NCBI GenBank assembly: GCA_028868895.1
Contig: JAGWTP010000027.1
Coordinates: forward strand, 1 to 39,042
Reading direction: 5' to 3'
Length of the DNA: 39,042 bases
DNA from: Burkholderiales bacterium
GTDB lineage: Bacteria > Pseudomonadota > Gammaproteobacteria > Burkholderiales > Burkholderiaceae_C
Position 1 is the stretch's first letter; each line of letters starts with the position of its first letter. The notes below the pieces were generated by a model. The model was not told the origin of the DNA. It saw nothing but the letters and a program-made list of their open reading frames with translations, and searched no databases. This document shows, in pieces, positions 6,895 to 37,361 of this stretch. A program made the position numbers and the translations under genes.

Positions 6895-9800
6895 ATGCCT
6901 GGTCCGAAGAGCAAGCGCAAACCGAAAGTCGACGCCTCGTCGGGCCTGTGGCTGACCGGGTTGCGCAATGCCGGCAAGCTGTACAACGCCCTGATCGACG
7001 AGGCCCTCACGCTGAGCGGTGCGCAACGCGTACTGCTCATGCTAGAAACGCCCGACGCAGCGCAGCTCGCCGGCGCACGGCTGCCGCGTGGCGAAGACGA
7101 GCAGGTGCTGCTCGCGGCCGTGACGCCGTGGTTCGACGAGGCGCGCCGCACTCGCGCCGCGAGCCTGCGCATCGGGCCCGACGGTGCCGCGGCGATCGAC
7201 CAGCGCAGCTGCGTCGTCGCCCCGTTGATCTGGCAGCGCGAATGGCTGGGCTGTCTGTATTGCGACATCCAAGGCGTGGCGGGTCGCTTCGGCCAGGTCG
7301 ATCGCGATCGGCTGGCGTTGCTGGCAACCCAGGCTGCGGCCGCGCTCGCCAACATCCGTTTCGCCGACGGCCTGCAGCGCCAGGTGGCCGATCGCACCGC
7401 GGAGCTCGCGCAACGCGCCGGCGAACTGGCGTTGATCAACAGCATCCAGCAGGGCGTGGCGGCCAAGCTCGAGTTCCAGGCCATCGTCGACCTGGTGGGC
7501 GACAAGCTGCGCGAGGTGTTCGCCACCGGCGACCTGAGCATCATGTGGTGGGACGACCAGACCAATCAGGTCCAGTCGCTGTACCGCTACGAGCACGGCC
7601 TGCCGTTGCCGCTGCCGCCGGCTCGGCGGTTGAAGCCCGACGAGCCGGTCGCACGGATCCTGCGCAGCCGCGAGGCCGGCGTCTCGAACACCCGCGCCGA
7701 GCAGACCCGTGCCGGCCTTAGCCCGGCGCCGGGCACCGATTGGGCGCACTCGCTCGCCGCAGTCCCCATCATCGGCCGCGACCGCGCGCTGGGGATCATC
7801 GCGTTGCAGGATCACGAGCGCGAGTACGCCTTCGGCAGCCACCAGGTCCGGCTGCTCGAAACGGTGGCAGCGAGCATGGGCGTGGCGCTGGAGAACGCGC
7901 GCCTGTTCGACGAGACGCAGCGCCTGCTGAAGGAGACCGGGCAGCGCAATGCCGAACTGGCGGTGATCAACAGCATCCAGCAGGGGTTGGTGGCGCAGCT
8001 GGACCTCCACGCGATCGTCGATCTCGTGGGCGACAAGCTGCGCGAAGTGTTTGCCACCGGCGACATGGGCATCTGCTGGTACGACGAGACCACGGAGCTC
8101 TGCACCTTTGCCTATTTCTACGAGCATGGCATGCGACGCAGGGATGTGGCGCCGTTCACGATGAGCCGCAGCGCCCGAAACGTGCAAATGCTGAGCGAGC
8201 GCCGCGCCATAGCGGTGAATTCGACCGCCGCGATGGGCATGGCCGTGGCGGGCACCGACTTGCCGAAATCCGACATGCGTGCACCGGTGGTGGCGGCTGG
8301 CCGCGTCATCGCGGTGGTTGGCATCGACAACTTCGAGCGCGAGAACGCCTTCGGCCCCGACGCGCTGCGCCTGCTCGACACGGTATGCGCGGCCATGGGC
8401 ATGGCGCTGCAAAGCGCACGCCTGTTCGACCAGACCCAGGCCGCGCTGCAGCGCCAGACCGCGAGCGCCGACATCCTGCGCGTCATCAGCCAGTCGCCCA
8501 ACGACGTGATGCCGGTGGTCGAGGTCATCGTCAGCACGGCTCGGCGGTTGCTGGGCTGCTACCGCACGGCCTTCCTGCGCCGCGAGGGCGAGTTCCTGAA
8601 AGCCATACTGCATGCCACGGCCAGTGGGTCGGCGCCGGGCATGGTCGGGCGGATTCCGCTGGACCCGGCGCACAACTTTCCGTCGCGCGCGCTGGTCGCG
8701 CGTGCCCCGCTGCACATCCCGGACTGGTCGACGGTCGAATTGCCCGCGCACGAGCAGACCGTCCAGCGCCAGACGGGTTGCCGGTCGTCGCTGCTGCTGC
8801 CGCTGCTGCGCGGCCACGATCAGGAAGGCCTGGGCGTGCTGGCCTTCCAGCGCGACGTGCCCGAGCCATTCAGCGACGCCGACATCGCGCTGGCGCAGTC
8901 CTTCGCCGACCAGGCCGTGATCGCGATCGAGAACGTTCGCCTGTTCAACGAGACGAAGGAAGCGCTGGACCAGCAGACCGCCAGCGCCGACGTGCTGCAG
9001 GCGATCAGCCGCTCGATGGCCGATGCGCAACCGGTGTTCGAGCGCATCCTCGACAGTTGCCAGGCGCTGTTCGGCACCGACGAAATGGGCGTGTGCCTGG
9101 TGAGCGGCGATCGCATCGACTTTCCGGCCTACCGTGGCCGCTTCGCCGAGATGATCAAGGCCCAGTACCCGCGACCGCTGGCCGGGTCGGTGAGCGAAGG
9201 CGTGATGCGGCGTGGCGAGGTCGTGCACATCGCCGACGCCGCGGCGGACGACCTTCCCGAGTACGTCTCCCGGCTCGCCGCCAGCCACGCCAACTTCTCG
9301 CTCGCGAGTGCGCCGATGCTCTGGCAAGGCCAGGGCATCGGCACCATCGACATCGCGCGCTCGCCGCCACGGCCGTTCAGCGACAAGGAACTGGCGCAGC
9401 TCAAGACCTTCGCCGACCAGGCCGTCATCGCGATCCAGAACGCACGGCTGTTCAACGAGACCAAGCAGGCGCTGGAGCGGCAGACCGCGACGGCGGCGAT
9501 CCTGGGCACGATCGCCCAGGCGCGCGGTGACGTGCAGCCGGTGCTGGACGCCATCGTGCACAGCGCGCGCGATCTGGCAGACGGGCTGACGGCCACGCTG
9601 TGGCACGTCGAAGACGGTGCGATTGCGCTGCTCGCCCGCACCCGCACCGACTCCGACCATGTGCTGCTGACCCACGAACGGCACCCGGTGGTCGGCAATT
9701 TCCTGGCAAGCCCCGTGTACACGCTGCAGCCGCTGGCCCTGCCCGACGTCGAGGCCGAGCCGCTCGTCGGCGAGGAGTGGCGCAAGATCGCCCGTGCCCG

Positions 9801-12800
9801 CGGCTATCGCTCGATCGTCGTCGTGCCGATGCTGCGCGACGGCACCTGCGTCGGCCTCGTCAGCGTCACCCGCCGGGAACCGGGCCCGTTCCCCGAAAGC
9901 ATCGTGGCGCAGCTGCAGACCTTCGCCGACCAGGCCGTGATCGCGATCCGGAATGCGCGGCTGTTCAACGAGACAACGGAGGCGCTCGAACGGCAGACCG
10001 CCACGGCCGAGGTGCTGAAGGTCATCGCGCGGTCACCCCACGACGTGCAGCCGGTGTTCGAGGCCATCGCCGCCAGCTCCAAGCGGCTGATGCAAGGCCA
10101 GTCGGCGGCCGTGCTTCTGGTGCGCGAAGGGCAGCTCCATCTGGCGGCGTTCACTCCGGTCAGCCTCGAAGCCGACCGAACGTTGCGGGCCTCGTTCCCC
10201 TTTCCGCTGGCCGCGCATCCCAACGCTGCGCGCATGGGCGCCGGCGAAGTCACGCACTTCAGCGATACCGAAGCCGACTGGGCGGAGACACCGGCGCTGC
10301 GCGACATGGCACGCCAGCGCGGCTTCCGCAGCTTGTTGACCACACCCCTCACACGCGACGGTGCAGTCATCGGCCTGATCAGCGTCACGCGCGCCGAACC
10401 CGGGCCGTTCTCGCCCGCGCACATCGCCCTGCAGCGCACCTTTGCCGATCAGGCGGTGATCGCCATCGGCAACGTGCGGTTGTTCAACGAAACGAAAGAG
10501 GCCCTGGAACTGCAGACCGCCACGTCCGACGTGCTGCGGGCCATCAGCAGTTCGATCAACGACGCCCAGCCAGTGCTCGACAAGATCCTCGACAGCTGCA
10601 GCCAGCTGATGCCCGCCAACGCCATGTTCGTCAATCTGGTGGGCGACGATGGGCGCCTGCACCTGGCCGCGTCGCTGGTGATCGGGCAAGCAGACCGCCC
10701 GGGCTGGACACAGCTGGAACTGGAGACGATCGAGAAGACCACGGCAGCTGTCTACCCCATGGCTCTGGAGAGCACCGGAACGGCCTTGGCCATCGCCAGC
10801 GGCCGGGTGCTCAACTTCCCCGATGTGCTGGAGGGCGACGCTGTGCCGCACGGCGTGCGCGCGCCGGCGCAGTGGCTGGGCCGCAACTACTCGCAGATGA
10901 TGGCGCCCCTGGTGCAGGGCGAGCGCGGCATCGGCAGCATCGCGGTGATGCGCGAGGCGCTTGGCGGCTTCACCGAGAAAGAGCAGTCGCTGCTCAAGAC
11001 CTTCGCCGACCAGGCGGTGGTCGCCATCCAGAACGCGCGGCTGTTTCGCGAGACGCAGGAAGCGCTGGAGCAACAGACCGCGAGCACCGAGGTGCTGCAG
11101 GTCATCACCGCGTCGCCCGGAGACCTGCGGCCTGTATTCGATGCGATTGCTGAAAAGGTGGCCCGCCTCTGTGAGGCCGATGACGGTGGTCTGTGGTCGG
11201 TGCAGGGCGGTGTGGCTCGCGCTGCCGGTCGTTCGGTCGAGGGGGGCAAGTGGTCTGAAGCCATTCGCGAGCTTGGGGAGGTGGAGTTTCCAGTGGAACA
11301 CCTGCTGGGCCGCGAACCGCTGAAGCATGCGTGCCTTCATGTGGCCGACCTGATGGACACACCAGCGTACCGGGCCGGGGTTCCCGTCACGAGACATTTC
11401 GTGGACCTGGGTGGCGTCAGGACCAGCCTGTTGGTGCCCTTGATCGACGATGGGTCGGTGGTGGGCATCCTGAGCGCGATACGGCGCACCGTGCGGCCGT
11501 TCAGCGAGCGACAGATTGCGCTGGTTCAGGCGTTTGCCGCACAGGCGCAGATCGCGATGAAGAACGCGCGATTGATCAACGAGACGAAAGAGGCGCTGGA
11601 GCAGCAGACCGCCGCGGCTGAGGTGTTGGCGGTGATCAGCAACTCGGTGTCGGACGCGCAACCGGTCTTCGACAAGATACTTGACAGTTGCCAGCGATTG
11701 ATCGCCGCGAACGACCTGTGCGTGATGACGATCGACGCGGACGCCATCGCTCATCTGGGATCGGTGCGCGGCTCTGGCGGCAGCCAGTTCGCGAAGTTCC
11801 GGCCAAGTCCGGTTGATCAGACCGTGATCGCCGAGGCCATGCGCGAGCGCCGCACCATGATTTACTCGGACGCTCTGCATGGCAGTGACGTCCCCGATGT
11901 GGTTCGCCGCATGGCGGCCAAGATTGGAAACTTTTCGCTGGTCGTGGCGCCCATGCTCTGGCAGGACCGTGGCGTGGGTGCATTGCTGGTCGCACGCTTT
12001 GTCTTGCATGCGTTCACAGCGAAAGAGGTGACGCTGCTCAAGACCTTCGCCGACCAGGCCGTCATCGCGATCCAGAACGCGCGCTTGTTCACCGAGACCC
12101 AGGAGGCGCTGGCGCGCCAGACCGCCACGGCCAATGTGCTGAAGGCGATCAGCCGCTCGACCTTCGACCTCGATGCGGTACTCGACACACTCATCAGCAC
12201 CGCCGCGCGCCTGTGTCACGCCTGGTTCGGCATCATGTTCAAGGTCGACGGCGAGGTGTTCCGCCCGCTCGCCCGGGTCGGCGCCACGCCGGAGCTGTTT
12301 GAGCACCTGCGAGCCAATCCTCTTTCAGTGCACGACCAGGATTCGGCGACGTCTCGCGCCCTTGTGGCCGGCCATGCCGTGCAGGTCGAGGATGCAGCGG
12401 ACGCCCAGAAGTACGGGCGCGGCGACGTTCAGCAAGTGGGCGCCTTCCGCACGATTCTGGCGGTGCCGATCCTGCGCGAAGGCGTGGCCATCGGCGTGCT
12501 GACGCTCGGCCGCGCCGAGGTACGGCCTTACAGCGACAAGGAGATCGAGCTCGTCACATCTTTTGCCGACCAGGCCGCGATCGCGATGGAGAACGTGCGG
12601 CTGTTCAACGAGACGAAAGAAGCGCTGGAGCAGCAGAAGGCCTCGGCCGAGGTGCTCAGCGTGATCAGCAACTCGGTGTCGGACTCGGCGCCGGTGTTCG
12701 AGGCCATCGTGCAGAGCTGCCAGCGGCTGTTTGCCAGCGGCAACTCCATCATCTCGCTGGTGAACGAGGACGGCATGGTCCGTCACGAAGCGATCGCCGT

Positions 12801-15360
12801 GAATCCGCAGCACACCGACGTGAGCGCCGCCGAGGCGCGCCGGTTCCTCGACCGCGGCTACCCGCGGCCGCTGACGCAGTCGTACCAGAACTACCCGATC
12901 CGCAAGCGCCAGTTGGTGCACTACCCCGACATGGTCCACGGGCCCGGCGTTCCCGAATCGATGCGCCAGATGGGGCGTGACGTCGGAAACTTCTCGATGC
13001 TGATCGCGCCCATGCTGTGGGAGGGCAAGGGCATCGGCACGATCCACGTGACGCGCTTGCCGCCCATGCCGTTCACCGAGAAAGAGTTCGGCCTGCTGCG
13101 CACTTTTGCCGACCAGGCCGTGATCGCGATCCAGAACGCGCGGCTGTTCAACGAGACCAGGGAGGCGCTGGAGCGGCAGACGGCCACGGCCGCAGTCCTG
13201 AGCGTGATCAGTGGCTCGGTCGCCGACACCGCGCCGGTGTTCGACAAGATCCTCGACAGTTGCCAGCATCTGTTCGCCACCGAGCAGTTGGGCATCTTCG
13301 TCGCCGGCGACGATGGCCAGGTGAATGTGGGCGCCTGGCGCGGAACCGCGCTCGCCGCCGTCGTCGAGACGTTTCCGCGGCCCACGGACCAGACGGCTAC
13401 CGGTGCGGTGATCCGGCAGCGGCGCACCCTGCACATCCCGATGGCGATGTCGGCGCCCGACATTCCGCCCGTCGTGCGCGACATCGCGCAGCGCATCGGC
13501 GATTTCTCGGTCGCGTGGGCTCCGATGCTGTGGGAAGACCGCGGGGTCGGTTCGATCTGCGTGCTGCGCCAGCCGCCCAAGCCGTTCTCGAACAAGGAAC
13601 TCGAGCTGCTCAAGACCTTCGCCGACCAGGCCGCCATCGCGATCCAGAATGCGCGGCTGTTCAAGCAGGCGCGGGAGGCGCGCGCCCAAGCCGAAGACGC
13701 CCGCCTTCAGGCCGAAGCCGCGAACGACGCAAAGAGTTCGTTCCTCGCCACCATGAGCCACGAGATCCGCACGCCGATGAACGCGGTGATCGGTATGAGC
13801 GGGCTGCTGCTCGACACCGCGCTCGACGTGGAGCAGCGCGACTATGTGGCGACGATCCGCGACTCGGGCGACGCGCTGCTGACGATCATCAACGACATCC
13901 TCGATTTTTCGAAGATCGAGGCCGGGCGCATGGACATCGAGTTGCACCCGTTCGACCTGCGCGACTGCGTCGAGTCGGCGCTCGACCTGGTCAGCACGCG
14001 CGCGACCGAGAAGCACCTCGACACCGCCTATGTGTTCGAGGGCGACGTGCCCGCGGCGGTGAGCGGCGACCTGACGCGGCTGCGCCAGATCATCCTGAAT
14101 CTGCTTTCGAATGCGGTGAAGTTCACCGAGGCCGGCGAGGTGGTGCTGACGGTGAGCGCGCAGCCCGTTCGCCCCGAGCCTGTCGAAGGGCTCCCCGGAG
14201 TGGGTCGGGACGGGCTTCGACCGGCTCAGCCCGAACGGGACACCGCGAATGACGTCGTGCTCACGTTCGCGGTGCGCGACACCGGCATCGGCCTGACCGA
14301 ACTGGGCATGAGCCGCCTGTTCCAGTCGTTCTCGCAGGCCGACTCGAGCACCACGCGCAAGTACGGCGGCACCGGCCTGGGGCTGGCGATCAGCAAGCGC
14401 CTGGCCGAGTTGATGGGCGGCACGATGTGGGTCGAGAGCGCGGGCGCCGGCGCGGGCTCGACCTTCTTCTTCACGATCACGGTGCCGACCGCCGAGCTGC
14501 CGGCCAGCCGGCGCCGTGACTTCGTCGGCGTGCAGCACGAGCTGAGCGCCAAGCACGTGCTGATCGTCGACGACAACGCGACCAACCGGCGCGTGCTCGC
14601 GCTGCAGACCGGCAAGTGGGGCATGAGCTCGCGCGACACCGAATCGCCGGCCGAAGCGCTGCGCTGGCTGGCCGCGGGCGCGCGGTTCGACCTGGCGATC
14701 CTCGACATGCACATGCCCGAGATGGACGGGCTCGAGCTCGCGCGCCGGATCCGCGCGACGCACGCCGCGCTGCCGCTGGTGCTGTTCAGTTCGCTCGGGC
14801 GGCGCGAGGGCGGCGACGCCGAAACGCTCTTCAACGCCTACCTCGCCAAGCCGATCCGCCAGTCGCACCTGTTCGACACGCTGGTGAGCCTGCTGGCGAA
14901 AGCACCGGCCGCGAAGGCCGAAACGCGCCGCGCCGCGACGCCGCGCCTGGACCCGGCGATGGCCGCGCGCCACCCACTGCGCATCCTGCTGGCCGAAGAC
15001 AACGTCGTAAACCAGAAGCTCGCGCTGCGCCTGTTGCAGCAGATGGGCTACCGCGCCGACCTGGCCAGCAACGGCATTGAGGCGGTCGAATCCGTGCAGC
15101 GCCAGCCCTACGATGTGGTGCTGATGGACGTGCAGATGCCCGAGCTCGACGGGCTGGACGCGACCCGCCAGATCTGCGCGCTGATGACCAAGGCAGAGCG
15201 CCCGCGCATCGTCGCGATGACCGCCAACGCGATGCAGGGTGACCGCGAGATGTGCCTCGCGGCGGGCATGGACGACTACCTGACCAAGCCGATCCGCGTC
15301 GAACGGCTGGTCGAGGCACTGAACGAGGTACAGACCCGCGAAGACCGAAGACATGCATGA
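6895..15360 (+). CDS. Giant soluble hybrid histidine kinase with about 13 tandem GAF domains
   Basis: A 2821-residue sensor kinase with no signal peptide or membrane helix, so cytosolic. About thirteen GAF domains run from near residue 20 to 2255. Each of the last twelve ends in an (A/V)RLF-type helix at residues 335, 508, 681, 850, 1021, 1194, 1381, 1558, 1729, 1901, 2082 and 2253, a 169-187 residue period. The linkers are close variants of [18 protein letters not shown]. Next come HisKA (His2289 in SHEIRTPMN), HATPase_c (N box [12 protein letters not shown] boxes RDTGIGL and [11 protein letters not shown]), and two receivers (Asp2604 in [11 protein letters not shown], Asp2745 in [11 protein letters not shown]). 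Residues 2424-2449 come from a palindromic repeat inserted between the N and G1 boxes. The stop overlaps the HPt start by eight bases. Ligands of the GAF domains cannot be told. A weak TTGCAA / TAGACT pair at 6801-6827 may be its promoter. Confidence 0.93.
14164..14239. repeat. Palindromic (REP-like) element inside the kinase gene
   Basis: Two 25-base arms, 14164-14188 and 14215-14239, are inverted copies of each other with about four mismatches; the left begins CCCGTTCGCCCCGAGCC and the right ends GGCTCAGCCCGAACGGG, with a 26-base spacer. The arms contain the GAGCC-TGTCGAAG / CTTCGA-GGCTCAGC words that I recognise from dispersed intergenic palindromes of many Burkholderiales. It encodes PVRPEPVEG...LRPAQPER in frame within the ATP-binding domain of the giant kinase, between VVLTVSAQ and [11 protein letters not shown]. 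Confidence 0.75.
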
Positions 15361-15700
15361 CGACACCGGCCAGCCCACGATCGACCTTGCCACCTATGGC
15401 GAGCTTCTGGCCACGACCGGCGACGACTTCGCAAAGGAACTCGTCGGCACGTTCCTCGAAGAAGCGCCGGTGATGCTGGCCGAGTTGCGCGCGGCGCACG
15501 CGGCCGGCCATGCCGACGCCTTCCGGCGCGCTGCGCACTCGCTCAAGTCGAACAGCCATACCTTCGGCGCACTCACGCTGGCCGCGATGGCGCGCGCGCT
15601 GGAGCTGAACCCGCTGCCGACTGACGCCAGCGCGCTCGATGCGTTGGCGTACGAATACGCCCGCGCCGCGGCGGCGTTGGCGGAGCTGCGCGATGCATGA
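15353..15700 (+). CDS. Stand-alone HPt phosphotransfer protein
   Basis: A 115-residue histidine phosphotransfer domain. The phosphorylatable residue is His62 in [16 protein letters not shown], which matches the HPt consensus (AHxLKGxS, here with Asn where Gly is usual). The helices around it ([20 protein letters not shown] before, [12 protein letters not shown] after) fit the four-helix bundle. It begins MHD and overlaps the kinase stop by ATGCATGA; its own stop overlaps the next gene by the identical eight bases. The kinase itself lacks an HPt domain, so this protein most likely carries phosphate from a kinase receiver to the receiver of the downstream cyclase. No DNA-binding or membrane part is present. 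Confidence 0.9.
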
Positions 15701-16763
15701 CACCCGCGCCTCCGGCGCCCGCCTGCTGGTCGCCGACGACAACAAGGTCAACCGCCTGCTGCTCACGCGCAGCCTGGAGTTGCAGGGCCACCGCGTGGCC
15801 AGCGCCGAGAACGGCCGGGTCGCACTCGACATGCTGCGTGCTGCACTCGACACCCAGGCCTTCGACCTGCTGCTGCTCGACATGGAGATGCCCGAGCTGA
15901 ACGGTTTCCAGGTGCTGGAGATGCTGACGGCAGACCGGGCGCTGCGCGACTTGCCGGTGATCGTGACCTCGTCGCTCGAAGGCATCGCCCACGTCGTGCG
16001 CTGCATCGAGCTCGGCGCGGAAGACTACCTCAGCAAGCCGGTGAACCCGGTGCTGCTCAAGGCCCGCATCGGTGCAAGCCTGGAGAAAAAGCGCCTGCGC
16101 GACCAGCAAAAAGAGCTGGTGCGCCGTTTCGCCACCTCCGAGGTCGCGCAGGACATGCAGCAATCGGGCTTCGCGCTCGGCGGCCGGCGCGTGACCGGCG
16201 CGGTGATGTTCGCCGACATCCGCGGCTTCACGGCGCTGGTCGAGTCGCAGCCGCCCGAAGAAACCATCGAGCTGCTCAACACCTGGTACACGCTGATGTT
16301 CGACGCGATCTCGGGCCACGGCGGCGTCGTCAACCAGATGATCGGCGACGGGCTGATGGCGATCTTCGGCGCGCCGCTGCCGCTGCCCGACCACAGCGCC
16401 GCCGCGGTGCGCGCAGCACTCGAGATGATCGAGATGATCGAGCTGCTGAACGCCGATCGGGAGGCCGCCGGCAAGCCGGTCATCCGCATCGGCATCGGCA
16501 TCGCCAGCGGCGAGATGGTGGCCGGCTACACCGGCACGCAGCAGCGCGCCACCTACACCTGCATCGGCGACACCGTGAACCTGGCGGCGCGGCTCGAGGC
16601 GCACACCAAGGTCGCGCAACGCGCGATCCTGATCGACAGCGCCACCCGCGCCGGCCTGGGCCCGCACACCGAGGTCGAGGCGATCGGTGCGGCGGCGTTT
16701 CGCGGCAAGGCGGCGCCGGTGGAGGTGTACGCGGTGCCGACCCCGGCCGCAATAGCTTCGTGA
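15693..16763 (+). CDS. Response regulator with class III adenylate/guanylate cyclase output
   Basis: A 356-residue two-domain protein. The receiver (about 10-130) has the acidic pair in LLVADDNKVN, phospho-acceptor Asp63 in LLLLDMEMPELNG, the Thr/Ser switch in VIVTSSLEG, and the conserved Lys in YLSKPVNP. A helical linker (LEKKRLRDQQKELVRRF) leads to a class III cyclase domain at about 165-350: metal-binding Asp175 in FADIRGFT and Asp219 in MIGDGLMAIFG, then YTCIGDTVNLAARLE with the transition-state Asn and Arg. Gln215 stands where adenylate cyclases usually have the substrate-selecting Lys, so the product (cAMP, cGMP or other) is uncertain. The MHD start overlaps the HPt stop by eight bases. 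It is the likely output of the kinase-HPt relay. Confidence 0.9.
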   Translation: MHDTRASGARLLVADDNKVNRLLLTRSLELQGHRVASAENGRVALDMLRAALDTQAFDLLLLDMEMPELNGFQVLEMLTADRALRDLPVIVTSSLEGIAHVVRCIELGAEDYLSKPVNPVLLKARIGASLEKKRLRDQQKELVRRFATSEVAQDMQQSGFALGGRRVTGAVMFADIRGFTALVESQPPEETIELLNTWYTLMFDAISGHGGVVNQMIGDGLMAIFGAPLPLPDHSAAAVRAALEMIEMIELLNADREAAGKPVIRIGIGIASGEMVAGYTGTQQRATYTCIGDTVNLAARLEAHTKVAQRAILIDSATRAGLGPHTEVEAIGAAAFRGKAAPVEVYAVPTPAAIAS

Positions 16764-18498: not shown

Positions 18499-19818
18499 TC
18501 AGGCCGGCGCTTCGAGCGCCTCGATCGCGTCCAGCCACGCGGCCACCGCGGGCGGAAAGGCCTGCCCGCGGGCGCTGGCGCGCCAACGATGGCGCAACTG
18601 GTTCGCGCTCGCGCACAGCTGCCAGTGCAGTTCGCGCGCCAAGGCCCAGAGCTCGCCCCGGACCTGCGCGTCGGGCTCGCTGCCCAGCATCAGCAGGCCG
18701 AGCTGGTCCGGGGTGATGCCGGCCTCGAACAGCATGCGTTGCAGCGTCTCGGCCTGGTCGGCGACGGCCTTGAGCACCGCCTGCGCGGCCGCGTCGACCT
18801 GCGGCGCCGAATCGGCCGCGGCCACGTGCCACTGGTTCAGCAGGTTCGCCAGCTCCCGAAGCCGGTCCACCAGGTCGGTCAACGCGCCTTCCACATCGTT
18901 CGGGTCGGCCGGCAACGCGCGCAGCAGACGGTGGATCGACGGCACCAGGGCCGCGTCGAAGCGCCGCGGGCTCACGCGCAGCAGCAGCGAGACGCGCTGC
19001 TCCGGATGCTTGCGGCCGCCGTCGAACATCGCGGTGACGACCTCGCACAGCGAGAGCAGCCGCCCGAGCGGGCTGATCGCGTCACCGACCAGCCCGCGCG
19101 GGTAGCCCGAGCCGTCGAGCCGTTCATGGTGTTCGACGATGGCGCGTGCCACCTGCTTCGGGTAAGCCTGAAAACGCGCGATCAACATCGACGACGTGAC
19201 CGGGTGCGCGTACAGCGGGCGGCGGTCGTCGCCGCTCAGGCGCACGCCGGAGTCGAGCATCTGCGCATCGACGTGCAGCATGCCCAGATCGTGCAACAGC
19301 CCCGCCGTGGCCGCCACCGTCATGTCGTAGACCGGCGCACCGCCTTCGCGCACCAGGTGAGCGCACAGGATCGCCATCAGGATGCTGTGCTCGAACAGCG
19401 CCGGCCGCGTCTCGCGGGCCAGCGTCAGGTGAAAGGCCACCGGCTGCGGCAGCGCGATCGCCTCGATCGACTGCAGCAGCATGCTGCGCATCCGTCCCGG
19501 CGGCCCCATCAGCGCGAAGAACGGCCGGCTCGCCATCGCCGCTTCGCAGGCCTGGCGCAACTGCGCGCTGGTGATCGGCGCGTCGGTGTCGATGCTTTCG
19601 TCGAGCGGCGCGGCCAGCCGGTGCGAGACCAGCCGGTCGTACAACTTCGCATCGATCTGCACGCCGCCTTCGAGCAACTTGACACCCTGCTGGTTGTAGA
19701 TCGCCTCGCGGCTGACGACCGGGCGGCTCTGGCCGAGCTGCGTCACGGCCTTCACGAACGCGGGGCTGTTCGGGTCGGCGGCCACGGCTGGAGCGAGATC
19801 GGAGGCGGTTTCAGTCAT
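18499..19818 (-). CDS. HD-GYP domain protein (probable cyclic-di-GMP phosphodiesterase)
   Basis: A 439-residue cytosolic protein. The N-terminal about 110 residues (REAIYNQQGVKLLEGGVQID) resemble the leader region seen in other HD-GYP/HDOD-like proteins. The HD-GYP core at about 130-290 has FEHSILMAILCAHL, LLHDLGMLHVD with the HD pair, a conserved His in YAHPVTSSMLI, and HHERLDGSGYPRGLVGDAISPLGR, so the metal and GYP residues appear complete. The C-terminal third is a helical region of unknown role (VDRLRELANLLNQ, QAETLQRMLFEAGI). HD-GYP domains hydrolyse c-di-GMP to pGpG or GMP; catalytic activity here is inferred from intact motifs. It is divergent from mutL. Confidence 0.88.
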   Translation of the reverse strand: MTETASDLAPAVAADPNSPAFVKAVTQLGQSRPVVSREAIYNQQGVKLLEGGVQIDAKLYDRLVSHRLAAPLDESIDTDAPITSAQLRQACEAAMASRPFFALMGPPGRMRSMLLQSIEAIALPQPVAFHLTLARETRPALFEHSILMAILCAHLVREGGAPVYDMTVAATAGLLHDLGMLHVDAQMLDSGVRLSGDDRRPLYAHPVTSSMLIARFQAYPKQVARAIVEHHERLDGSGYPRGLVGDAISPLGRLLSLCEVVTAMFDGGRKHPEQRVSLLLRVSPRRFDAALVPSIHRLLRALPADPNDVEGALTDLVDRLRELANLLNQWHVAAADSAPQVDAAAQAVLKAVADQAETLQRMLFEAGITPDQLGLLMLGSEPDAQVRGELWALARELHWQLCASANQLRHRWRASARGQAFPPAVAAWLDAIEALEAPA

Positions 19819-33626: not shown

Positions 33627-36600
33627 GTGACCGAAATGGAATCGACGCCGGGCACGCCCGGCCTGCGGCGCCGCACCGCGTGGGTGATCGCCGCCATGTG
33701 GAGCCTCGGGGTGCTCGGCGTCGCTGCGTGGTGGTTGCAGGATCGGCTCGCCGAACACCACGAAGAATCCGCCGCCACCGGCGCGGTGCGCCTGAGCGGC
33801 GTCAAGGAGACGCTGGCGATCACGCTGCGGCAACTCGCCGCGCTGCCGCACGATCTGTCGCACCGCCGGACCGTTCCTGAGTTCGTCGCGGGCACGTCCG
33901 CCACCGACGCGCCAGCGGCGCAGAGCGTCGAGATCCAGCAGACGCTCGACCGGCTCAGCGCCGATTTCAGCCTGCCGCTGGTGGCGCTGATCAACCGCCG
34001 CGGCGAGTTGCTGGCAAGCAACGAGGCTTCGGGCGGCCGCGCCGGCAGCGCGTCGGCTCCGTTGCCGATCCAGACTTTCTTCAATGAGGCGATGGCGCGC
34101 GGCTCGTCGATCCAGTTCTCCGCGGATCGGGACGGCGGCCTTCCGGAGTTCTATTTCGCGAGCCGGGTGCTGCGCGACAGCGTGCCGGTCGGCGTCGCGG
34201 TGGTCACGCAAGACACCGGCACGTTGAACCGCCTTCTCAGCGAAGCTCGTGGCGCACGCGTGTTTGCCAGCGACCCCAACGGCGTGATCGTGCTGGCCGA
34301 CCGCAGCGATCTGCTGATGATGCGGCTGCCAGGCTCGGCGCAACGGCCCGAGGCCGAGTGGCAGGCGATCTACCGCCGGGTGCCGCAGCCGGTCGCGTGG
34401 CAGCAGTCACGTCGCAGCGGCGATGCCGGCGGCGCGCTCATCACGCACCTCGGCGGCCTGCGCCATGTCTCGCTGTCGTCGCCGCTGGCCGACACGCCGC
34501 TCAAGATCTGGGTGCTCGAACCGTTGCAGGAAGAATCGACGATCGTGCGCAATGCCTGGATCGGCGGCGTTGTCGTCTGGCTGTTCGGGTGCGCGCTGAT
34601 CTGGCTCGGCTGGCGCCGCGTTCATTCGCTCGACGCCGCGGTGCAGGCGCGCCGCGAGATCTTCGAGCTGACGCAGGCGCTGCCGCTGACGGTGTTCCGC
34701 TACACCCGGCCCGCCCACGGCGCGCCACGCTTCACCTTCATCGGCCGCGGCGTCGAGGCCCTCTTCGGCGTCGATGCCGCCAAGCTCGAAGCCGACCCCG
34801 AACTGCCGTGGCGCCTGGCCGGCGACGACCGGCCGCCGACCCGGCCGCACGAGTTCAGCATCGAGCGCGGCGACCGCGTGACCTGGGTGCTGGCCGACAG
34901 CACGCCCAAACCCGAGGCCGACGGCGGCACCACCTACAACGGCTACTGGCTCGACATCACCGCGCGGCGCGAAGCCCAGGCGCGCTTCGCCGCGGTGTTC
35001 GAGCATGCGTCGACGAGCTACCTGTTCTTCGACGCACGACACGGCCTGATGCACTGCAACCCGGCCACGCTGAAGCTGTTCGGCGCCAGCGAAGAGCAGA
35101 CACTCGTCGGCCGCAACCCGTGGACGCCGGGCCTGTCTCCGGAGTTGCAGGCCGACGGCCAATCGAGCCGAACCCGCGCGCTCGAGGGGCTGCGCGAACA
35201 CACCGCCACGCGCCAGCGCGTGCGCACCTTCGAGTGGCGTTTCAGGCGCCTCGACGGCAGCGAGTTCGACACCGAGGTCAGTGTGATCGCACTCGAATGG
35301 GTCGGCACGCCCGAGTTCTGCGCAGTAATCCAGGACATCACCGCGCGCAAGCAGCTCCAGGCCTCGATGCAGCAGGCGCGCGATGCGGCCGAGGCGGCCA
35401 ACCAGACCAAGTCGAGTTTCCTCGCCAACATGTCGCACGAGCTGCGCACGCCGATGAACTCGATCATCGGCATGACCCATCTCGCGCTCGAAGACGGCCT
35501 GCCTGACAAGCAGCGCGACTACATCGAAAAGGCCCACAGCTCGGCGCGCAACCTGCTTCAGATCCTCAACGACATCCTCGACGTCTCGAAGATCGAAGCC
35601 GGCCAGCTGGCCCTGGAGCGAATCGACTTCGAACTCGAATCGGTGGTCAGCGAGATGGCCGACGTGCTCGGACTCAAAGCCGACGAGAAGGGTCTGGAGC
35701 TGCTGTTCAGCGCCTCACCCGACTTGCCGCGCCGCCTCGTCGGCGACCCCACCCGGCTGCGCCAGGTGCTGGTGAACCTGGGCGGCAACGCGATCAAGTT
35801 CACCGACGCCGGCGAAGTCACGGTCGGCATGGAGCTGGCGCAGCAGGACGCCGATTCGGTCGAGGTCCACGCCTGGGTGCGCGACACCGGTGTGGGCATG
35901 AGCGCCGACGAGCTGGCGCGCCTGTTCCAGCCGTTCGTGCAGGCCGACAGCTCGACCACCCGGCGCTACGGCGGCACCGGCCTGGGCCTCGTGATCAGCC
36001 GCCAGCTCGTCGAGCGCATGGGCGGGCGGATGTGGGTCGACAGCGAACCCGGCAAGGGCTCCACCTTCCACTTCACGGCGCGCTTCGGGCGCAGTGCGCC
36101 GCGCGCCGCGGCCCGGGCCTGGATGGCCAACGAGCTGCGCGGCCAGCGTGCGCTGCTGGTCGACGACAACGCCGCCGCGCTCGATGTGATGAGCTCGATG
36201 CTCGAAACGCTGGGCGTGGTCGTCGACCGGGCCGCCAGCGGCGAGCAGGCGCTGGCGATGGTCGACGCCCAGCCGCAGGCTTACACCTGGTTCCTGATCG
36301 ACTGGAAGATGCCGGGTATGGACGGCGTGGCCTGCGCCCGCCGCATCCTCGAGAAGCACCCGCTGGTTCGCCCGTGCATCCTGCTGGTGACCGGCTTCGC
36401 GCGCGACGACGCGCTGCGCGCGAGCGCCGGCGTGCCGCTGGCCGGCGTGCTGCTCAAGCCGGTCACACCGTCGAGCCTGCACGACTGCCTGGTGCAGGCC
36501 CGCCGGCTGGCATCGGCCGCGCCGGTCACCGCCCGGCGCGTCATCAACACGCCGCCACTGTCGCAGGCCGTGCGCGAGCGGCTCGCCGGCGCGCGCGTGC

Positions 36601-37361
36601 TGCTTGTCGAGGACCACCCACTGAACCAGCAGTTGGCCAGCGAGTTGCTGCACCGTGCCGGCATGGAGGTCGTGCTGGCGCAGGACGGCCGCGAGGCGCT
36701 GGCCCGACTCGCCGCCGACGGGCCGTTCGACGGCGTGCTGATGGATTGCCAGATGCCGGTGATGGACGGCTACACCGCCACCCGCGAACTGCGACGTCAC
36801 CCCGAATGGCAACGCCTGCCGGTGATCGCGATGACCGCCAGCGCGCTCGCCGAAGACCGCGATCGGGCGCTGGCCAGCGGCATGAACGCGCACATCGCCA
36901 AGCCGATCCAGGTCGAATCGATGCTGCGCACGATGGCCGACTGGATCGTCGGGCCGAATGCGGCGGCGCCAGCGCACACCGCCGATCCGGCGACGAACGG
37001 CGCCGACGCGGCGGCGTCGCCGGCCATCGACACCGCCGTGGGCCTGTCGTACTGCATCGGCAACGAAGACCTCTACCGGCGCTTGCTCGAAGGCTTCCGC
37101 GATGCCGAGGCCGACTTCGCAGCCGATGTCGGGCCGGCGATCATCGACCGGCGCTGGGCCGACGCGCTGCGCCGCTCGCACGACCTGAAGGGCCTGGCCG
37201 GCACGATCGGCGCGCAGCGGCTGCTTGCGGCCGCGCAGGTGCTGCACGCTGCGCTGGCGGCGCAGCACGCCGAGGCCGCCAGCGCCGCGCTCGAGCGCAC
37301 GGGCGCGGAACTGGCGGCGGTGCTCGGCGAAATCGAGGCGCTGCTGCCGGGCAGCCGATGA
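33627..37361 (+). CDS. Membrane hybrid histidine kinase with two receivers and an HPt domain (BarA-like)
   Basis: A 1244-residue sensor kinase. Transmembrane helices at about 18-37 and 311-330 enclose a periplasmic sensor of roughly 270 residues, probably Cache-like (SADFSLPLVALINRRGELLASN, DPNGVIVLADRSDLL). Then come two PAS-like domains (about 340-450 and 455-575), HisKA with His604 (NMSHELRTPMNSIIGM), HATPase ([36 protein letters not shown]), receiver 1 with Asp892 (FLIDWKMPGMDG), receiver 2 with Asp1040 (LMDCQMPVMDG) and HPt with His1185 (RRSHDLKGLAGTIGA). All relay residues are present. GTG 33627 is the chosen start, with AAGGAG four bases before it; an ATG lies nine bases on. No cognate regulator is adjacent, so the output is unknown. 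Confidence 0.93.
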   Translation: MTEMESTPGTPGLRRRTAWVIAAMWSLGVLGVAAWWLQDRLAEHHEESAATGAVRLSGVKETLAITLRQLAALPHDLSHRRTVPEFVAGTSATDAPAAQSVEIQQTLDRLSADFSLPLVALINRRGELLASNEASGGRAGSASAPLPIQTFFNEAMARGSSIQFSADRDGGLPEFYFASRVLRDSVPVGVAVVTQDTGTLNRLLSEARGARVFASDPNGVIVLADRSDLLMMRLPGSAQRPEAEWQAIYRRVPQPVAWQQSRRSGDAGGALITHLGGLRHVSLSSPLADTPLKIWVLEPLQEESTIVRNAWIGGVVVWLFGCALIWLGWRRVHSLDAAVQARREIFELTQALPLTVFRYTRPAHGAPRFTFIGRGVEALFGVDAAKLEADPELPWRLAGDDRPPTRPHEFSIERGDRVTWVLADSTPKPEADGGTTYNGYWLDITARREAQARFAAVFEHASTSYLFFDARHGLMHCNPATLKLFGASEEQTLVGRNPWTPGLSPELQADGQSSRTRALEGLREHTATRQRVRTFEWRFRRLDGSEFDTEVSVIALEWVGTPEFCAVIQDITARKQLQASMQQARDAAEAANQTKSSFLANMSHELRTPMNSIIGMTHLALEDGLPDKQRDYIEKAHSSARNLLQILNDILDVSKIEAGQLALERIDFELESVVSEMADVLGLKADEKGLELLFSASPDLPRRLVGDPTRLRQVLVNLGGNAIKFTDAGEVTVGMELAQQDADSVEVHAWVRDTGVGMSADELARLFQPFVQADSSTTRRYGGTGLGLVISRQLVERMGGRMWVDSEPGKGSTFHFTARFGRSAPRAAARAWMANELRGQRALLVDDNAAALDVMSSMLETLGVVVDRAASGEQALAMVDAQPQAYTWFLIDWKMPGMDGVACARRILEKHPLVRPCILLVTGFARDDALRASAGVPLAGVLLKPVTPSSLHDCLVQARRLASAAPVTARRVINTPPLSQAVRERLAGARVLLVEDHPLNQQLASELLHRAGMEVVLAQDGREALARLAADGPFDGVLMDCQMPVMDGYTATRELRRHPEWQRLPVIAMTASALAEDRDRALASGMNAHIAKPIQVESMLRTMADWIVGPNAAAPAHTADPATNGADAAASPAIDTAVGLSYCIGNEDLYRRLLEGFRDAEADFAADVGPAIIDRRWADALRRSHDLKGLAGTIGAQRLLAAAQVLHAALAAQHAEAASAALERTGAELAAVLGEIEALLPGSR

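Follow-up and report, generated by a model that had tools for sequence, protein, structure and literature searches.

A Hybrid Histidine Kinase with Thirteen GAF Domains Probably Heads a Phosphorelay to a Nucleotide Cyclase, in a Module Whose Sensor Linkers Vary in Steps of Seven Residues

Introduction

It is an open question how the several sensors of a receptor are integrated into a single decision, and most studies of it have looked at just one or two sensor domains. The subject of this work is a 39,042-nt stretch of a Burkholderiales genome (assembly GCA_028868895.1, contig JAGWTP010000027.1, forward strand), referred to as the window. It encodes a multi-GAF hybrid histidine kinase, followed directly by a histidine phosphotransfer (Hpt) protein and by a protein that joins a receiver to a class III nucleotide cyclase (Table 1). 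The kinase and these two partners probably feed many chemical inputs into one second-messenger enzyme. Excerpts of earlier work describe multi-GAF receptors with "up to seven" and "seven" GAF domains (PMC6696110, PMC5812497).

The Kinase and Its Partner Genes

The Pfam domain order of the kinase is 13 GAF domains, HisKA, HATPase_c, and two receivers. PF01590 (GAF) matches 13 stretches (E 7.2e-141), GAF_2 matches 12, and GAF_3 matches 10. A separate profile built for this analysis likewise places 13 units, and the modeled units 1-4 and 11-13 have the GAF-like order of strands and helices. A sequence-only reading of this DNA had proposed a 2821-residue kinase with about thirteen tandem GAFs and two receivers, and the domain search bears it out with 13 GAFs, not far fewer. 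The protein is a hybrid histidine kinase with a separate Hpt partner by its motifs: the SHEIRTP box, the N, G1, and G2 boxes, the receiver Asp and Lys residues, and HxxK in the Hpt protein. The highest 19-residue hydropathy window of the kinase scores 1.76 and lies inside a GAF strand region, and no membrane domain is found among its Pfam matches. A soluble kinase, as had been proposed, is therefore plausible.

Table 1. Features of the window.
Feature	Position	Strand	Details
Multi-GAF hybrid histidine kinase	6895..15360	+	ATG start, 2821 amino acids
GAF unit 1, class 1, N-terminal cap	6979..7347	+	Profile placement; class 1 always at position 1
GAF units 2 and 3, class 6, INSIQ type	7477..8400	+	Unit placement and unit-tree classes
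GAF units 4-13, class 4	8515..13644	+	Profile placement and unit tree
GAF unit 12, clean extra cassette relative to locus L062	12613..13155	+	Lies between window units 11 and 13, the counterparts of L062 units 9 and 10
HisKA/DHp	13729..13926, residues 2279-2344	+	SHEIRTP box at residue 2288, phospho-acceptor H2289
HATPase_c	14065..14481, residues 2391-2529	+	NLLSNA, DTGIG, GTGLGL boxes
Receiver 1	14557..14910, edges approximate	+	Acceptor D2604, Lys in AKPI
Receiver 2	14983..15321	+	Acceptor D2745, Lys in TKPI
Hpt protein	15353..15700	+	115 amino acids, AAHSLKSN box (H62)
Receiver and class III nucleotide cyclase	15693..16763	+	Likely start 15693; listed open reading frame (ORF) start 15639
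HD_5 protein	18499..19818	-	Possibly HD-GYP type
Second hybrid kinase	33627..37361	+	PAS, HisKA, HATPase, two receivers

The stop of the kinase gene and the start of the Hpt gene overlap in 8 nt, ATGCATGA, and an identical 8-nt overlap recurs where the Hpt gene ends and the cyclase gene begins. Because both gene junctions overlap in the same bases, translation of the three genes may be coupled. The cyclase domain matches PF00211 (E 4.2e-24) and keeps D193, D237, N314, and R318, which we take to be the metal-binding Asp residues and the catalytic Asn and Arg. Elsewhere in the same genome, six further matches to class III cyclases were found, together with 19 cyclic-nucleotide-binding ones (18 above the curated cut-off), so a network that receives the cyclic nucleotide is plausible.

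In the window array, the units 4-13 share DNA repeat families with 61-73% identity to a reference copy, and units 2 and 3 have in common a 156-nt repeat with 81% identity. Between u3 and u13, all ten linkers are equal in length; the spread of spacing among the units thus comes from the GAF cores, which vary, and not from the linkers. Across units 4-13 the end helix is 77% identical in DNA and the core 42%. Exact DNA repeats within the end helix reach 45 bp, which would be long enough for recombination.

Spread of the Kinase-Hpt-Cyclase Module

An alignment scan of named genomes with the receiver-cyclase protein gave at least 80 loci, a lower bound on its spread. With the window, the 80 listed loci make 81 sequences, and 79 of these contain a receiver-cyclase frame (the exceptions are L131, split over two frames, and L138, below the score limit). 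A kinase and an Hpt protein lie directly upstream of the cyclase in 53 of the 79 frames. The 53 include the window and L076, which is on the same contig as L062 and is omitted from the unit, linker, and tree counts below. Among the other 26 frames, five have an Hpt protein without a kinase frame, either where the sequence ends close upstream (L085, L087, L089, L114) or where 3 kb upstream hold no kinase (L100). Two have a kinase without an Hpt protein (L092, L152), and the 19 with neither are weaker cyclase matches. L092 comes from a metagenome-assembled genome (MAG) labeled Klebsiella pneumoniae; its kinase and cyclase are Burkholderiales-like, and the bin is probably mislabeled.

By record names, the module hosts among the matches listed are Rhizobacter, Variovorax, Rubrivivax, Inhella, Paucibacter, Bradyrhizobium, Rhodobacteraceae, and one delta MAG within the Proteobacteria, and Anaerolineales, Thermoleophilia, and an actinobacterium beyond them. 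The module thus spans Beta- and Alphaproteobacteria, Chloroflexi, Actinobacteria, and the delta MAG. Among 399 genomes drawn evenly from the order, 11 match at 1e-60, and seven, including the window's own genome, score above 590 bits; the module is sporadic. Plasmid carriage of the cyclase was rejected, as 72,556 records gave no match at 1e-60.

The number of GAFs in the adjacent kinase ranges from 0 to 14 over the 46 loci in which the kinase stays clear of the locus start (three of these kinases, in L086, L127, and L132, are split by stops), and ten loci have 10 or more. The 13 GAFs of the window are second only to the 14 of L091 among the listed loci, a count that Pfam confirms. The earlier reading had called the array unusually long, and it stands well beyond the seven GAFs cited in excerpts of the papers compared (PMC6696110, PMC5812497). 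Relatives of the module do exist; their arrays differ from that of the window, and none was found described in the literature searched.

The module is conserved. HxxK is present in all 53 Hpt proteins (35 by the strict pattern, 18 read by eye), and the Hpt domain is fused to the kinase in four of the 53 (L106, L116, L124, L128); the cut frame of L114 also reads as receiver-Hpt. When the 53 module cyclases were aligned, the receiver Asp was found in 53, D193 in 51, D237 in 52, N314 in 50, and R318 in 52. Simple motif patterns matched all three cyclase sites in 25 of the 53, and most misses were due to the patterns, as judged by the alignment. The L130 cyclase is cut by a contig end.

Two or more kinases stand in a row before one Hpt protein and one cyclase at L061/L062, L069, L078, L096, L097, L098, L099, L120, and L122. 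The tandem kinases of L061 (7390-17235) and L062 (719-8977) have 13 and 10 GAFs and a single Hpt protein and cyclase, an arrangement which suggests that both may feed one relay. Many betaproteobacterial relatives also have about 480-540 extra residues ahead of GAF 1. Of three such N-termini tested, one (L069) gave a TPR-like Pfam match, barely above the cut-off. Most or all of this extra region is absent from the window, L077, L078, L081, and L101. A tblastn search for a hidden TPR-like region 5' of the window gene with the N-termini of six relatives gave one hit below E 0.01 (0.003), which lies over the gene's own start.

Linker Lengths Between Sensors

Linker length was counted in residues between two anchors, one in the final helix of a GAF and the other in a helix of the GAF that follows. 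The 71 frames contain 339 adjacent pairs. Of these, 338 were measured, with one dropped for a missing anchor or a distance over the limit, and 325 have both classes assigned. Unit classes follow from a clustering cut chosen by the analyst; eight classes were used for the main counts and others were tried.

At eight classes, the lengths of the 325 linkers depart from the mode of their class pair by 7 or 14 residues only, and every one of the 70 non-modal linkers is off its mode by a multiple of seven (Table 2). There were no exceptions to this rule with 10, 12, or 20 classes and one with 4 or 6. Between different class pairs, lengths differ by non-multiples of seven. Among the 13 measured pairs that include a unit of unassigned class, one group has both 54 and 58, and the 58 follows a cut fragment that reads like class 1, for which 58 is the usual length. 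As a control, the lengths of the GAF cores in classes 4 (188) and 6 (128) occupy every class modulo 7.

Table 2. Linker lengths in residues by class pair (number of linkers).
Class pair	Lengths
4-4	48 (117), 55 (25), 62 (1)
6-6	54 (58), 47 (25)
1-6	58 (10), 65 (8), 44 (1)
3-4	48 (8), 55 (4)
6-4	48 (8), 55 (2), 62 (1)
4-3	48 (5), 55 (1)
6-7	54 (3), 47 (1)
7-6	54 (2), 47 (1)

The spacing from the last GAF to the phospho-acceptor His, located in 60 of the 71 frames, is 40 residues in 53, 47 in three, and 160-182 in four. In these four a PAS-like domain stands between, identified by Pfam in L106 and by reading in the other three. On the unit tree, at least 13 length changes are needed in class 4 and at least 11 in class 6, and these may include cassette swaps. 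By eye, the u1-u2 linker has DRT and its relatives have ERT, the signature that the S-helix carries in its central heptad; the inspected linkers of other classes are mostly without it.

Linkers in multiples of seven have been linked to coiled-coil register. Heptad linkers and coiled-coil signaling are established for sensor-effector pairs, and a review makes the same case for consecutive sensor modules, according to excerpts of these sources (PMC6798134, PMC9587094, PMC1592074). The module linkers resemble the S-helix and coiled-coil linkers of sensor kinases and of PadC diguanylate cyclases in this respect. In the excerpts, those are mostly sensor-to-effector linkers, with 54% multiples of seven in PadC, whereas the rule in the module holds from sensor to sensor in arrays of up to 14 units.

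Class Order and Mosaic Arrays

The unit tree was built from 394 of 410 units; those covering fewer than 110 profile columns were excluded. Cut at 12 clusters, the window units fall into the groups u1; u2-u3; u4; u5, u8, u10, u12, u13; and u6, u7, u9, u11. The sub-types that had been seen by eye are recovered, with u8 joining u5, u10, u12, and u13, and the tree agrees that the array mixes at least three GAF lineages instead of copies of one.

The classes are ordered. Class 1 stands first in all 22 frames that have it, and class 6 always precedes class 4, with 126 ordered pairs against 0 in the 18 of 71 frames that contain both. None of 1000 within-protein shuffles gave as few as 0 pairs with class 4 before class 6, though the shuffle keeps shared descent. 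Random mixing of the classes was rejected on these counts.

The arrays are also mosaics. The nearest relative of a unit lies inside the same protein for only 34 of the 394 units, 20 of them adjacent, and all 13 window units have their nearest relatives in other kinases, often at other positions. The nearest outside unit is in the kinase with the nearest core for 74 of 338 units (median rank 5 among 57 kinases by core distance), as a raw count. In the comparison of the window with L062, the kinase region is 87% identical, window u11 and u13 correspond to L062 units 9 and 10, and u12 is an exact extra cassette. Synonymous divergence (dS) for this pair is 0.82 and 1.06 in the u11 and u13 pairs, 0.43 in the kinase, 0.32 in the receivers, and 0.32 in the cyclase. 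The contrast fits separate histories of the units and the output, though homogenization between the tandem kinases of L062 could also have lowered the dS of the kinase. The GAF cores change faster than the kinase of the same gene pair (nonsynonymous divergence, dN, 0.33-0.38 versus 0.08), and omega is 0.21-0.77 across the 13 unit pairs tested. Linker-helix identity is 78-92% in 12 of these pairs and 59% in the remaining one, the short pair of u1, against 43-74% for the cores. Such comparisons among relatives point to sensors that serve as exchangeable blocks, held together by linkers whose length is tightly fixed.

Predicted Structure

AlphaFold models were made of units 11-13 with the kinase (mean predicted local distance difference test, pLDDT, 86.4; predicted template modeling score, pTM, 0.56) and of units 1-4 (mean pLDDT 85.4; pTM 0.43). 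Single helices span all five modeled junctions between GAFs, and one runs from GAF 13 past H2289. The long signaling rod that the sequence-only reading had entertained is supported by these predicted continuous helices and by the linker lengths. In a Foldseek search with the model of units 11-13 and the kinase, the best matches were phytochromes (8upk, rank 1) and hybrid kinases of the GacS and RetS type (7z8n, rank 6; 6dk7, rank 16). The multi-domain template modeling scores are low (TMq 0.21-0.34), and unlike these proteins the window system has a GAF array as input and a nucleotide cyclase as output.

Ligand Motifs

The GAF domains of cyanobacteriochromes attach bilin through a Cys motif, and cyclic-nucleotide-binding GAFs have NKxnFx3DE. 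Two simple patterns for the bilin-attaching Cys found none in the 410 units, and a bilin photoreceptor was rejected. Cyclic-nucleotide feedback through the GAFs was considered because the nearest solved sequence for the class-4 units is 1ykd (E 3.9e-17), the tandem GAFs of the cyanobacterial adenylate cyclase CyaB2. This was rejected as well, since NKxnFx3DE was found in 0 of 13 window units (two loose matches occur in the 410 units). In 1ykd the GAFs belong to the cyclase, whereas the window encodes its cyclase apart from the GAFs, joined to a receiver.

PtxD and other multi-GAF cyanobacteriochromes likewise have a row of GAF sensors in one protein. Theirs number at most seven and bind bilin in the excerpts at hand (PMC6696110, PMC5812497), unlike the 13 of the window, which have no bilin Cys pattern and lead to a kinase-Hpt-cyclase output.

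Proposed Mechanism

With a probability of roughly two-thirds, the system is a multi-sensor phosphorelay, probably cytoplasmic, in which a dimeric GAF rod with a cassette-evolving array signals through the kinase and the Hpt protein to the cyclase. The earlier reading had correctly seen a multi-GAF hybrid kinase, and its suggestion that the array may integrate many ligands stays an inference; it had missed the Hpt and cyclase output, the variation from 0 to 14 units, and the order and mosaic nature of the array.

The sequence itself shows the domains, the catalytic motifs, the gene order, the length rule, the order of units, their mosaic relationships, and the predicted helices. From these we infer ligand binding, dimer geometry, the phosphotransfer route, the cyclase product, and the direction of control as follows. 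The 13 GAFs would stack as a long, probably dimeric rod through continuous helices of locked length. Any of the GAFs could act as a sensor, and ligand in at least one pocket would shift the helices and alter DHp/ATPase activity at the end of the rod. Phosphate would then pass from H2289 to D2604 and/or D2745, on to H62 of the Hpt protein, and to the receiver of the cyclase protein, the phosphorylation of which would switch cyclic-nucleotide synthesis. The array would evolve through gain, loss, and replacement of whole GAF cassettes, and such exchange would work because the linkers share length and sequence.

A more specific version is tentative, at somewhat less than even odds: interchangeable GAF cassettes sit in a fixed stacking order (cap, distal class, kinase-proximal class) on a fixed kinase-Hpt-cyclase output and are exchanged between kinases at a nearly universal helical adaptor, its length locked to whole heptads. 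If so, bacteria could retune which chemicals set the level of a second messenger and leave the output untouched. The graded series of 0 to 14 units on the same output, together with the length rule and a pair that differs by one cassette, opens the rules of sensor stacking to direct tests and could inform the design of multi-input biosensors. In the open-access literature searched, neither the module nor an array with at least ten GAFs was found described (wording for 10-13 GAF domains gave no paper), and no report was found of sensor-to-sensor linkers in heptad steps, a fixed class order, or mosaic arrays. The seven-residue rule between sensors, the scale of 13-14 units, the module, the class order, and the cassette mosaic thus appear new.

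Several observations weigh against the phosphorelay and its rod. When the units are cut into one or two classes only, most non-modal linkers fail to differ by multiples of seven (135 of 169 and 116 of 159); the rule is hidden at these cuts because the classes have fixed length offsets. The hydrophobicity of the modal linkers peaks near 3.3 residues and not 3.5, and a clean heptad pattern was rejected on this ground. The pTM values of the models are low, so their global arrangement is not established, and pLDDT drops to 66-73 along the helix that leads up to and surrounds the His (model residues 541-570). In 6 of 46 loci the adjacent kinase lacks GAFs altogether, which makes the array non-essential to the output. 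The window units lack the known ligand motifs, as judged by NKxnFx3DE and the bilin Cys patterns. Adenylyl cyclases usually have K and D at the sites matching Q233 and T307 of the window cyclase; of the 53 cyclases of the module, 39 have Q and 12 have L at site 233, and 50 have T at site 307. Catalytic residues are lost in the module cyclases of L133 and L134, which are possibly inactive.

Alternative Explanations

Most GAFs could be structural spacers, a stalk that sets reach or position, with ligand in one or a few units. The range of 0 to 14 units on the same output, the fast evolution of the GAF cores (omega up to 0.77), and the lack of a known ligand motif would suit a stalk. Omega is nonetheless below 1 in all 13 pairs, many GAF lineages are retained, their class order is conserved, and bilin is bound by six or more of the seven GAFs of PtxD according to an excerpt (PMC5812497). 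We regard the spacer explanation as less likely than not, though it is the strongest of the rivals. The rod might also be antiparallel or non-dimeric, as in the tandem GAFs of cyanobacterial adenylate cyclase, and its locked lengths would then not come from a parallel coiled coil. The best PDB sequence match of the class-4 units is indeed such an adenylate cyclase (1ykd), the linkers lack a clean heptad period, the models are of single chains, and the prokaryotic inter-GAF coiled coils known to PMC1592074 are described in the excerpt as antiparallel. Linker lengths that change in steps of seven and a predicted helix that enters the DHp domain argue against this arrangement, and we regard it as quite improbable. 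In histidine kinases the DHp domain is a parallel dimer.

Plain tandem amplification of one GAF would account for the DNA repeat families across units 4-13, the exact end-helix matches, and the 20 units with a nearest relative next door. It is disfavored by the unit tree, where so few units are closest to another unit of their own protein and those of the window never are, and we give it little credence. That the array is an assembly artifact of repeats is the least credible explanation, a very slim chance. The source genome is in 196 contigs, and joins that skip the kinase or the array occur in the sister genomes L071, L072, and L073. The ORF is nevertheless intact, the closest other unit inside the window protein is 37-52% identical, and two records titled as Ruegeria strains, not MAGs, have arrays with 10 and 11 units (L117, L126).

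Neighboring Genes and Unusual Loci

QueG and an AmiC-type amidase are encoded upstream of the kinase, and both also occur on module contigs of three same-genus genomes (L061, L072, L073). Downstream of the cyclase gene are an alpha/beta hydrolase and, further on, MutL, with the HD_5 protein between them. The second hybrid kinase of the window has a weak C-terminal Hpt match below Pfam's cut-off.

Some loci depart from the common layout. In L071, L072, and L073, of the same genus, the stretch between the neighbors lacks the array or the entire kinase, through either real deletion or misassembly of repeats. L084 (2552-9706) is a single open frame with prolyl-oligopeptidase domains followed by four GAFs and a kinase, and the module kinase of L112 (147-6656) has an N-terminal protein kinase and an AAA ATPase ahead of the GAF. 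In L070, whose genome is a single contig, about 12.5 kb separate the receiver part from the cyclase part and the two are on opposite strands, as would follow from an inversion within the gene.

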